The translations under genes and the position numbers were made by a program. From NCBI RefSeq assembly GCF_000374125.1, contig NZ_KB893643.1:193645-257644 (forward strand): DNA of 64,000 bases. The letters are read 5' to 3'. Positions within the stretch are counted from its first letter, which is position 1; the number at the start of each line of letters is the position of its first letter. Positions 15,355 through 18,275 of the stretch are shown piece by piece. A model generated the notes under the pieces. That model saw only the letters and a list, made by a program, of their open reading frames with translations. It was not told the DNA's origin and searched no databases. This DNA comes from Niabella aurantiaca DSM 17617. GTDB taxonomy: Bacteria; Bacteroidota; Bacteroidia; Chitinophagales; Chitinophagaceae.

Positions 15355-15523
15355 TGACCATACGCCGTCCGCGCCGCCGGGCCGGTATCAAAACCTGACC
15401 GGCGACAAGTAAGCAACCGTTTTCAGGCATTTCCGGGATTTTTTTAATCCCTGGATGTTGCGTTTCATTTCATAGCTGCGTTACCTCTATCAGAACAACA
15501 TTTATATCGCTCAAAATCTGAAA

Positions 15524-16234
15524 ATGATGAAAAAAGTTTTTCTGGGCAGCTTTTTATTGTTGACCCTGGTGTTTTTAAGCTCCTGTTTAAAAGATCGTGA
15601 CAGCTATTACGACAGCCCCGAGTTTCAAAACGCCGCCGCAGTAAGCATTATCAACGGTGCCCCGCTGGGGATGCCACTGGACATCCAGTTTAAAGGAACC
15701 CAGCGCTGGCTGCTGAATGAGTTTTATTATACTTACCGGACCAATTATACCCGCGTTTATTCCGGTGACCGGAAACTGTATGTGTTCAACCGGGGAGAAT
15801 CGGACAGCCTGTTTTCAAAGAACGTAACGTTCGAGCCCCGCAAACGGTATTCCATCTTTATTGTGGACACCCTGAGCAAAATGGATGCGGTACTGGTACG
15901 CGACAGTGTTATGACCCCCGTTGGCGATTCCATTTTGATCCGTTTTGCCAATATGAGCCCCGACGCCGGAGCCATTGACCTTTACATACAGGACAATCCT
16001 ACCGCAGTCGCAAAAAACATCGGGTACAAAAATGTAAGTACATTTGTCAGCTTCAAGTCGGCAAAAGACATCCGGTTTGAGGCAAGGGCAGCCGGTACGA
16101 ATACAGTACTGGCCACCTCGGAGGTAAAGAATTTATATAATGGAAATCAATATACTATTTGGACAACTGGTTTTAAGTCGATGAACACTACCAACGGAAA
16201 ACTGATTGTAGAAGCGATGGCGCACTATTATTAG
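15524..16234 (+). CDS. DUF4397-type lipoprotein
   Basis: Exported lipoprotein of 236 residues. The signal sequence ends in the lipobox LSSC with the acylated Cys at position 21. The mature part carries a DUF4397 immunoglobulin-like region (ILIRFANMSPDAGAIDLYI and later VSTFVSFKSAKDIRFEARAA). DUF4397 proteins are cell-surface or periplasmic and their role is unknown. The gene stands alone between the symporter and a terminator at 16255-16299. Confidence 0.82.
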   Translation: MMKKVFLGSFLLLTLVFLSSCLKDRDSYYDSPEFQNAAAVSIINGAPLGMPLDIQFKGTQRWLLNEFYYTYRTNYTRVYSGDRKLYVFNRGESDSLFSKNVTFEPRKRYSIFIVDTLSKMDAVLVRDSVMTPVGDSILIRFANMSPDAGAIDLYIQDNPTAVAKNIGYKNVSTFVSFKSAKDIRFEARAAGTNTVLATSEVKNLYNGNQYTIWTTGFKSMNTTNGKLIVEAMAHYY

Positions 16235-16254: not shown

Positions 16255-16299
16255 AAAAAGATCAGCCTCCGTTGCCCCAGCGCCGGTTGGCTGATTTTT
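16255..16299 (+). terminator. Rho-independent terminator after DUF4397 gene
   Basis: TCAGCC (16262-16267) pairs with GGCTGA (16289-16294). The stem is prolonged by an A-run before and TTTTT after it, which could also allow termination from the opposite direction. Confidence 0.65.
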
Positions 16300-16340: not shown

Positions 16341-16901
16341 TTGGGAATACAGGACGCCGAACTGGAACTGGTGCTGAAAAAATGCGGGCAGGACTCAGTA
16401 CCACACAAAGAAGCGCTTTATAAAAGCTATTATGGCTTTATAAAAGGCGTGGTGAGGCGTTATGTAAATGATTATCATGTAATGGAAGAGTTGGTGAATG
16501 ACTCTTTTGTGAAAATCTTTAGTCACCTGGATTCCTTTAAGGCACCCGGATATTCGGCGGATATTGAGCAGTCCTTTAAAGGCTGGGTAGCCAAGATCGC
16601 TTCAAGAACGGCGATCGATTTTCTCAGAAAGAAGAAAATGAATCTCTTACAGGAGGAACCGTCGGAGAACCATTTTCCGGAGCAGCACCCTTCCGGGGTG
16701 CAGTCCAGCGAAGTAAAGGACATTATGTCCCTGCTGAATCAACTGCCTGAAATCCAAAAAACCGTTTTTAGTTTATACGAAATCGAAGGATTCAGCCATG
16801 AAGAAATTTCCCGGATGCTACAGATTTCGGAGAATGTCTGCCGGGTTTATCTCTCAAGGGCGAAAAATAAATTGAAAGCGCTTTATATAAAAAATTTTTA
16901 A
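16341..16901 (+). CDS. ECF RNA polymerase sigma factor
   Basis: Sigma-70 family factor of 186 residues. Region 2 covers about 25-105 (YKSYYGFIKGVVRRYV, VMEELVNDSFVKIF, WVAKIASRTAIDFLRKKKM). Region 4 covers about 125-180 (LPEIQKTVFSLYEIEGFSHE and VCRVYLSRAKNKLKAL). The only usable start is TTG at 16341, since an in-frame TAA lies just upstream at 16320-16322 and no ATG precedes conserved region 2. The weak TTG start may keep its level low. Nine bases downstream begins the gene for a membrane protein with the features of its anti-sigma factor, so the pair is almost certainly an operon. Confidence 0.9.
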   Translation: MGIQDAELELVLKKCGQDSVPHKEALYKSYYGFIKGVVRRYVNDYHVMEELVNDSFVKIFSHLDSFKAPGYSADIEQSFKGWVAKIASRTAIDFLRKKKMNLLQEEPSENHFPEQHPSGVQSSEVKDIMSLLNQLPEIQKTVFSLYEIEGFSHEEISRMLQISENVCRVYLSRAKNKLKALYIKNF

Positions 16902-16910
16902 TGAAAAGTC

Positions 16911-18275
16911 ATGGAAGACCATCAGGATGATTTTTTAAAACATATTAAAGAGGTACTCCGGAACCACGAGGAGGACTACCGGCAGGGCGCCTGGGAACAG
17001 TTTTCCCAACAGCACCTGCAGGCTCCGGTAAAAGCTGCCCGGGTGATCCCTCTGTGGAAAAAGATCACGGCTGCCGCAGCTGTTCTTGCCGCTGTATTGC
17101 TGAGCGTCCAGTATTTTATAACAACACCTCCTGCCGGCGTTTCTCCGGCGATCGTGAAGGAGGATGGCGCACAGTCACCCTCCCAAAAGAACCATCCGGC
17201 CACCGGGAACAGTCAAATAACACTCCCCGTACCGGACACCCAGGCTCCGTTAACGGCAGACCGGTCCTCCGGGAACAACCCGGTATTTTCTCCGCAGGAA
17301 CAGCAAAAACCCGGAACGCCTCTTACCGCCAGCGGACAGGAACCGGTTGCACAAAATGATGTTCTGAAAGAAACACCCGTGTTGCCGGCGCCCCCGTCTG
17401 CAGGAACGGAAGTGACTGCAGGACACGGGCAAACACCAACAAGACAGAAGCCCGCCCCCAAACCATTTTGGCCCAACCCTGTTGCGCCCGGCAATGCAAC
17501 AGCAGGCCAGCAGCCACCGGTACGCCAGCAAAATCCCCTCTTCCTGGCCCGGGAATCCGCCCCGTCAGAACGGGAGAACAGCCGCTCAAAGAAATGGTCT
17601 CCCAGCGTCTTCATCTCGCCCATGTTCGGGGAAAGCGACGTAAATATGGGCTATGGAGTTTCGCTGGGTTATGCGGTAAATGATAAAATAAAGATCAGCG
17701 CAGGGGTCGCGCACAATAAAATGACGGCTTCACGTGATTTTGATGTTTCTTTCCCTTCTTCTAATGCGACGTTGAACAGTCCGGCAGCTTTCAGCGCTTC
17801 CGCCGCAAGAAGCCTCGTTAATAATGATGCTGCTGTGCCTCAGCAGCAACTCGAAAAGGTGAACGCTACTTTAAGTGGTTTTGACATCCCTATTGATATC
17901 AGCTACAATATTACCAACCGGCTGTATGCTACTGCCGGGGTATCCGGAATGGTGGTGGTCAGGGACAATGCCCTGTATTACTATAAAGACAGCGAAAACC
18001 AGCAGATCTCGGTCGAGAACAACCAGGGCATCCTGAAAGAAGACAAGAACATACAGGTCATAAAATCTTCGGTTTCCGATGCCGCTCCGGAAGCATCCGG
18101 AAAGGAACGGACGCCCTTCCTCGGGTTCTATAACGTTTCTTTCGGCTATAAACAGAAGATCACGCCCAAAAACAATGTGGCCATCGAACCCTTTCTGAAA
18201 GTGCCCATGAAGAACGTATCGGACCAGAAGCTGAACTATACCGGTATGGGCATCCGGCTGAAATTTGACTTTTAG
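16911..18275 (+). CDS. Probable dual-membrane-spanning anti-sigma factor with outer-membrane beta-barrel
   Basis: Protein of 454 residues in four zones. Residues 1-50 are charged and probably cytoplasmic (DDFLKHIKEVLRNHEEDY), where they would bind the sigma factor. Residues 52-71 form one inner-membrane helix (ITAAAAVLAAVLLSVQYFIT). Residues 72-226 are a Pro/Gln/Thr-rich disordered linker of about 155 residues. Residues 227-454 look like an eight-stranded outer-membrane barrel with alternating aromatic strands (FISPMFGESDVNMGYGVSLGYA) ending in LKFDF, the terminal Phe signature. One chain thus seems to cross both membranes, as described for the Dma anti-sigma factors of Bacteroides. It lies 9 bases after an ECF sigma gene. 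Envelope stress or vesiculation control is the likely role, by analogy. Confidence 0.75.
   Translation: MEDHQDDFLKHIKEVLRNHEEDYRQGAWEQFSQQHLQAPVKAARVIPLWKKITAAAAVLAAVLLSVQYFITTPPAGVSPAIVKEDGAQSPSQKNHPATGNSQITLPVPDTQAPLTADRSSGNNPVFSPQEQQKPGTPLTASGQEPVAQNDVLKETPVLPAPPSAGTEVTAGHGQTPTRQKPAPKPFWPNPVAPGNATAGQQPPVRQQNPLFLARESAPSERENSRSKKWSPSVFISPMFGESDVNMGYGVSLGYAVNDKIKISAGVAHNKMTASRDFDVSFPSSNATLNSPAAFSASAARSLVNNDAAVPQQQLEKVNATLSGFDIPIDISYNITNRLYATAGVSGMVVVRDNALYYYKDSENQQISVENNQGILKEDKNIQVIKSSVSDAAPEASGKERTPFLGFYNVSFGYKQKITPKNNVAIEPFLKVPMKNVSDQKLNYTGMGIRLKFDF

Follow-up and report, generated by a model that had tools for sequence, protein, structure and literature searches.

The 64,000-nucleotide window analysed here, a stretch of contig NZ_KB893643.1 of Niabella aurantiaca DSM 17617 (GCF_000374125.1; G000:C19 in our genome set, host genome of 5.93 Mb), carries on its plus strand a DUF4397 lipoprotein gene (15524..16234), a gene for an extracytoplasmic function (ECF) sigma factor (16341..16901) and a gene for a barrel-tethered putative anti-sigma factor resembling the dual-membrane-spanning anti-sigma (Dma) and Reo proteins (16911..18275). 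The architecture of the latter protein, called the partner below, is already known; what is new here is that the pair forms a divergent subfamily headed by the DUF4397 lipoprotein gene, with its own promoter motif and a candidate lipoprotein regulon. We consider it probable that these three genes form a module in which an outer-membrane-tethered anti-sigma factor controls a lipoprotein regulon. What computation shows is the predicted architecture of the partner, its pairing and co-inheritance with the sigma factor, the linkage of the pair to DUF4397, the conservation of the motif and its co-occurrence with the sigma factor. The DUF4397 gene and the motif lie outside the interval treated in a preliminary description of this DNA, which missed them as well as the candidate lipoprotein regulon, and were found by following the locus.

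We infer sigma binding, anti-sigma activity, a role of the motif as the promoter of this sigma factor, a signal and a release step, and would combine them as follows. The N-terminal ~36 residues of the partner would keep the sigma factor bound at the inner membrane, this sigma-binding domain being physically connected with the outer membrane through a helix, a tether that is long and disordered, and a barrel of 8 strands. The barrel would sense a change (most probably outer-membrane stress, or a surface or lipoprotein ligand), upon which a conformational change or proteolysis would set the sigma factor free. Once free, it would transcribe from TGTWGCGTTT-N13-CGTTW promoters the DUF4397 gene and a set of small lipoprotein genes, and also one probable outer-membrane barrel gene in the host genome. 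The module itself could be transcribed from the DUF4397 promoter if a terminator-like hairpin is read through.

The sigma gene (186 aa) and the 454-codon partner gene are both intact, the partner lying 9 nt downstream. The sigma factor matches TIGR02937 (E 3.2e-24), the Pfam models Sigma70_r2 and Sigma70_r4_2 above cut-off, and general ECF models. Its TTG start, proposed in the preliminary description, is supported by the orthologue alignment, where the codon faces another TTG in 14 of the 16 Niabella orthologues (the position being extrapolated in some), and no ATG occurs in the window sequence between this TTG and the preceding in-frame stop. The weak TTG start of the sigma factor and the ATG of the partner would favour an excess of partner. 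The pairing claimed for the 454-residue protein was likewise recovered: the partner adjoins the sigma gene in 16 of 17 Niabella genomes, the cluster reaching a contig end in the 17th, and because of this adjacency the pairing cannot be attributed to chance. The named relatives found are Niabella, with a top partner identity of 66% (N. drilacis). At the junction (16899-16913), an in-frame TGA comes immediately after the sigma stop codon TAA, and two more codons separate it from the partner ATG. In close relatives the two genes lie in one frame, and in more distant Niabella they overlap or closely abut. In one genome (G149:C1:4455387-4456839; L025, L028-L030) the partner copy is broken by stop codons; the assembly is rated 72% complete, at which level sequencing error and decay cannot be told apart, and this copy was excluded from the partner alignment and trees. 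A sigma-70 scan of the locus gave no promoters above those in shuffled sequences (4 vs 3.8).

The first gene of the cluster encodes a 236-aa DUF4397 protein (PF14344, E 1.6e-27) with a lipobox ending in LSSC, and is the sole DUF4397 gene found in the genome. A DUF4397 gene stands upstream of the sigma gene at 24 of 24 loci of the inner clade (16 in Niabella, 6/6 in another order and 2/2 in a second genus), and none was found within 4 kb upstream of 17 other pairs, of which 8 belong to sister or outgroup lineages and 9 are canonical; the linkage thus coincides with one clade of both the sigma and the partner trees. Between the DUF4397 and sigma genes, a consensus scan, which is not evidence of function, called the terminator-like hairpin with its T-run on the plus strand (16277..16299, stem 16277-16290), and inverted repeats of similar look were seen by eye in the corresponding spacers of relatives. 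Homology of the DUF4397 protein to NigD was considered and rejected, the NigD1/NigD2 model matching weakly, in the signal peptide only, with E 0.041, below cut-off. In the open-licence literature, we found no paper combining 'DUF4397' and 'lipoprotein', and searches for this architecture outside Bacteroides brought up, among the titles and abstracts listed, none on a DUF4397-linked subfamily.

The partner is predicted to have four parts: a putative sigma-binding N-terminus (residues 1-36, 16911..17018), an inner-membrane helix (48-71, 17052..17123), a disordered Pro/Gln-rich tether, presumed periplasmic (72-226, 17124..17588), and an outer-membrane barrel with a C-terminal Phe (227-454, 17589..18272). 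Across the alignment of 17 orthologues, the N-terminus and the barrel are conserved, the helix is present, and no column of the linker is conserved. In the best AlphaFold2 model, helices were placed at 4-18, 27-36 and 48-71, with low confidence over 71-221, and strands at 229-239, 244-255, 260-276, 311-333, 338-369, 375-389, 403-416, 422-432 and 445-453; the predicted local distance difference test (pLDDT) score is mostly 85-95 in the barrel strands and weaker in the outer loops. We read these strands as forming a barrel of 8, in which the periplasmic turns are short and the outer loops, at 277-310 and 352-402, are long. When the PDB was searched by Foldseek, 42 matches were obtained at E <= 0.001 with OmpA on top, and all 50 PDB rows shown are outer-membrane or designed barrels. 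The superpositions are loose, with a root-mean-square deviation of 9-13 A and a template modelling score (TMt) of 0.30-0.60 for the OmpA/OprF rows, and 20 A for the nuclear magnetic resonance model 2ge4. The preliminary description had foreseen a helix, a 155-residue Pro/Gln-rich linker and a C-terminal barrel ending in Phe. The linker indeed has 155 residues with 18% Pro, 10% Gln and a pLDDT of about 30-41, and both the helix and a barrel within 227-454 were predicted; only the span given for the helix, 52-71, had to be revised to 48-71. No Pfam or NCBIfam model matched the partner above cut-off, and its weak matches to TBSV_P22 and ArtJ were judged to be due to chance.

The signal that such a barrel would pass on can be conceived in more than one way. 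One version of the explanation proposed above, differing from it in the signal, makes the barrel a folding sentinel: upon failure of its insertion by the barrel assembly machinery (BAM), the barrel would be degraded, the N-terminus lost and the sigma factor freed, so that assembly stress rather than a ligand would be sensed. The strands are conserved (mean pairwise identity 0.49-0.73) and the outer loop L2 is not (0.17), as expected if insertion outweighs a ligand, and the related Reo/EcfO system has been proposed to respond to envelope stress (PMC9308784, PMC13114119). However, loops L3 (0.35) and L4 (0.51) are moderately conserved, and we regard the sentinel as a possibility to be kept in mind rather than as the favoured signal. 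A further elaboration of the tethered anti-sigma model is that the sigma factor has the DUF4397 lipoprotein as its first target and that this protein also serves as the ligand of the barrel, docking on it or threading through it, which would close a loop on lipoprotein delivery; this idea is speculative and, in our estimate, rather unlikely.

Ahead of the DUF4397 gene, the window contains an exact copy of the predicted sigma-dependent promoter, TGTTGCGTTT-N13-CGTTA, on the plus strand at 15456..15483. With up to two mismatches allowed, nothing else in the window matches, the chance mean being 0.39. The motif TGTWGCGTTT-N13-CGTTW, whose spacer bases are free, recurs upstream of DUF4397 genes in otherwise divergent DNA, 24-78 nt ahead of the start codon where the start could be called. 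Among 25 inner-clade DUF4397 loci, which are the 24 above and a locus cut by a contig end (G158), the motif was present within two mismatches in 24 and exactly in 19. The pattern was written from 16 loci, and it was found within two mismatches at 9/9 loci whose upstream DNA had not been seen at that time. The notion that G158 kept the motif without the system was dropped as unproven, its DUF4397 gene reaching the contig end. Across 396 genomes of the class, the exact motif occurs in 7 of the 8 genomes with an inner-clade sigma factor versus 23 of 388 others (Fisher p 5e-8), three of the 23 carrying sister or outgroup sigmas, and a reversed control pattern matched in about 27 of the 396. With a spacer of 12 or 13, a latitude chosen after the first results, the motif also stands before the sigma gene itself at 5 of 8 sister or outgroup loci, which are free of DUF4397. 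The corresponding figures are 1 of 40 for the canonical and phylum-wide loci together and 22 of 2400 for mononucleotide shuffles. We take the occurrence at sister and outgroup loci as a trace of ancestral autoregulation, in which case the DUF4397 gene would now lie between the promoter and the sigma gene.

The host genome contains five exact motif sites. Besides the DUF4397 site, three are followed by lipoprotein-like genes of 155, 144 and 361 aa, with starts 19, 21 and 172 nt away, and another (92402-92429 of G000:C24; L191:903-1574) lies 17 nt before a GTG-started gene for a 208-aa protein, which has a signal-peptide-like start and matches an outer-membrane barrel model below cut-off. Four one-mismatch sites have lipoprotein-like genes downstream too. 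In three of the nine cases the site overlaps a further predicted open reading frame, and none of seven candidate target proteins of this genome has a Pfam match at E <= 0.1. A lipoprotein-like start was found within 250 nt at 23 of 30 exact non-DUF4397 sites in Niabella under a relaxed rule set after the first results (17/30 under the strict rule), and at 5 of 11 such sites in the other order, as compared with 1 of 20 sites in genomes without the sigma factor and about 3% of 2680 random positions. The Niabella sites counted are those fetched rather than all, the 30 being part of the listing; the counts leave out 9 and 1 DUF4397 sites, repeated sites, the Niabella-group loci L214-L217, and L246 and L273, which were counted by hand as DUF4397. 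The group without the sigma factor comprises 20 of 23 sites, one being left out and a tandem triplet counted once. The motif might instead belong to another lipoprotein-controlling ECF sigma factor, the window sigma acting elsewhere, as the presence of at least two further related ECF sigmas in the genome and the lack of a motif copy at the inner-clade sigma gene could indicate. Both the co-occurrence of the motif with the window sigma subfamily across the 396 genomes and its position before the sigma gene in sister lineages argue against this alternative, which we judge improbable.

The N-terminus of the partner carries six residues invariant among the 17 orthologues (E20, Y23, G26, W28, E29 and F31), and the mean pairwise identity over its 36 residues is 0.54, as compared with 0.12 (12%) for the tether. 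In the same 17 proteins the length of the linker is 155 +- 12, and it ranges from 131 to 216 in a set of 29 proteins; the linker is thus free to vary in sequence and far more restricted in length, as one would expect for a tether. The sigma and partner trees of 76 pairs, from which L094 (the same place as L078) and L071 (a run of N) were left out, are largely congruent by eye among the portions listed. In six genomes with several pairs, matched sigma and partner profiles beat swapped ones in 8/8 comparisons for both the N-terminus and the barrel, and distances in the N-terminus, the barrel and the linker correlate with sigma distance with r of 0.83, 0.89 and 0.42, respectively. These values bear on the possibility that the helix is a cleaved signal peptide and the partner an outer-membrane barrel of the ordinary kind whose leader is unusual, in which case it would not span both membranes. 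In favour of this, the helix is Ala-rich and reaches a pLDDT of about 60 in the model of the partner alone. Nevertheless, the N-terminus is conserved within the range of the strands, has invariant residues and tracks the sigma factor, and the near-constant length of the tether fits a span, all of which makes a cleaved leader very improbable.

A structural link between the two proteins was sought by co-folding the sigma factor with partner residues 1-80 as a single-chain read-through fusion with a 4-residue link. For residues 11-20 and 21-30, pLDDT rose from 73 and 58 in the partner alone to 89 and 92 in the fusion, for which there was no sigma-only control, and the membrane helix 48-71 reached 89. 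Among PDB entries, the fusion fits best to sigma chains that come from complexes with an anti-sigma factor, with TMt of 0.58-0.62 for SigW-RsiW, followed by CnrH-CnrY (0.57), RpoE-NepR (0.57-0.58), and sigmaE-RseA and AlgU-MucA (0.45-0.51); ECF sigmas bound to RNA polymerase, among the matches listed, reach about 0.31-0.41. The evidence for contact of the partner N-terminus with the sigma factor is suggestive only: the rise in N-terminal confidence was observed in a read-through fusion, and the support for an interface is indirect.

Pairs of this kind extend well beyond Niabella. A search of the family with the partner as a single sequence returned 6 of 147 genomes, and a profile search gave matches in 73 of 147, many of them in the Pro-rich linker; linker-only matches, which also enter the phylum tally of 99/296 genomes, were judged spurious and were not used. 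The sigma gene lies directly upstream in 20/20 family regions hand-picked for barrel matches. In the phylum-wide search (296 genomes, 99 with a match), a sigma gene is adjacent at 28/28 new loci, other classes included, one of the 28 being the same place as one of the 20 family regions. Conversely, when loci were chosen by sigma similarity, a barrel partner was found at 16/16 of those returned, four overlapping the earlier sets. Proteins of dual-membrane architecture are thus found widely across the phylum, so that this architecture is not new, and the occurrence of the pair in a Bacteroidota lineage other than Bacteroides, remarked on in the preliminary description, is no surprise. Window-type triads of the second genus (L010/L137 in G116 and L011/L138 in G018) fall together with those of the other order in the sigma tree as well as in the partner tree, a hint of horizontal transfer. 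A genome of another order (G278) has three sigma/barrel-anti-sigma pairs of different subtypes (L128, L136 and L112), with DUF4397 beside L128 and not beside L136. Full-length pairs also occur in another class of the phylum (family f23: L098, L100-L102, L106, L114-L117, L119 and L120), with a distinct N-terminus, DPLE..F.KK...YDI.Y.E.DW..LE, so the architecture would be older than the class of the window or would have spread.

The Dma proteins are described as a Bacteroidota family with an N-terminal sigma-binding domain, one membrane helix, a disordered tether, a C-terminal barrel and an adjacent ECF sigma (PMC13088901), and Reo as a protein that begins in the cytoplasm and ends in a barrel in the outer membrane, its regulon including three NigD surface lipoproteins (PMC13114119, PMC9308784). 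The four-part architecture and the sigma pairing found here match these descriptions, so the Dma concept invoked in the preliminary description fits. The likeness to Dma1-Das1 and Dma2-Das2 of B. thetaiotaomicron (same architecture and neighbouring ECF sigma) and to EcfO-Reo of B. fragilis and P. vulgatus (likewise an anti-sigma that links the cytoplasm with a barrel in the outer membrane, and a lipoprotein regulon) is one of description, homology having been shown only to other pairs of the phylum. What sets the window pair apart from Dma/Das is the DUF4397 gene that heads it and a promoter motif of its own. In contrast to EcfO-Reo, its candidate targets are the DUF4397 protein and small lipoproteins without a Pfam match, not NigD, and its sigma gene has no motif directly upstream, whereas strong induction of the sigma gene itself is described for P. 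vulgatus. Dma1 loss in B. thetaiotaomicron is reported to raise NigD1 expression and vesiculation. By analogy, it looks as if the window system works like Dma/Das and EcfO-Reo. The host genome has a second, canonical pair on the minus strand (L059, G000:C2:288500-293500), with overlapping genes, a 421-aa partner (PF13568, 46 bits) and no DUF4397 within 4 kb upstream. Canonical pairs, L059 included, share with the window pair the gene order, helix, tether, barrel and invariant Gly/Pro positions. They differ from it in the N-terminus type, in a partner identity of 13-18% to the window partner, in overlapping sigma and partner genes (19/19), in the absence of DUF4397 within 4 kb upstream (0/9) and in the near absence of the motif before the sigma gene, for which the 1/40 given above covers canonical and phylum-wide loci together.

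In the FecI-FecR-FecA system, the signal passes from an outer-membrane protein via an inner-membrane regulator to an ECF sigma factor, sensor and regulator thus being separate proteins, whereas in the window partner both would be on one chain. Some FecR-type regulators are needed for sigma activity. That the partner is likewise a co-activator or chaperone rather than an inhibitor is hardly probable given that Dma1, Dma2 and Reo are reported as inhibitors from mutant studies (PMC13088901, PMC13114119, PMC9308784).

Several results count against an outer-membrane-tethered anti-sigma factor in control of lipoprotein genes. Concerning the partner, the five AlphaFold2 models disagree, with a mean pLDDT of 62 for the best and 55 to 34 for the others, the membrane helix reaches just ~60 outside the fusion, and the contact with the sigma factor comes from a fusion with a 4-residue link, without coordinates, predicted aligned error or a sigma-only control. 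In the swap test the linker also scored 8/8, so joint inheritance of whole genes is shown rather than an interface, and one N-terminus comparison was a near tie (1.40 vs 1.39). Concerning the motif, G116 lacks it within two mismatches and G022 carries the sigma factor without an exact site. It was found before the sigma gene at 0/15 inner-clade loci, so that autoregulation would need read-through of the terminator-like hairpin. The sister or outgroup loci L129, L135 and L136 lack it within 315 nt of the sigma gene, the L129 genome having an exact site about 400 nt upstream, and the late choice of a variable spacer has to be borne in mind. Finally, concerning the regulon, 6 of the 11 non-DUF4397 sites of the other order and 4/4 sites in three genomes with sister or outgroup sigmas have no lipoprotein start, the relaxed lipoprotein rule was likewise a late choice, and some Niabella sites are orthologous between species, the 30 sites not being independent.

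Barrel-tethered anti-sigma factors are a recent discovery, and the subfamily described here, from bacteria that are distant from Bacteroides, offers a readable promoter motif, lipoprotein-rich candidate targets and a lipoprotein partner gene present as a single copy. If the closed loop were true, the module would gauge the arrival of lipoproteins at the outer membrane or surface and adjust their expression, with sensor, tether and inhibitor on one polypeptide. Together with EcfO/NigD and Dma1/NigD1, the subfamily suggests that lipoprotein control may be a general job of this class of regulators, a proposal that is directly testable.

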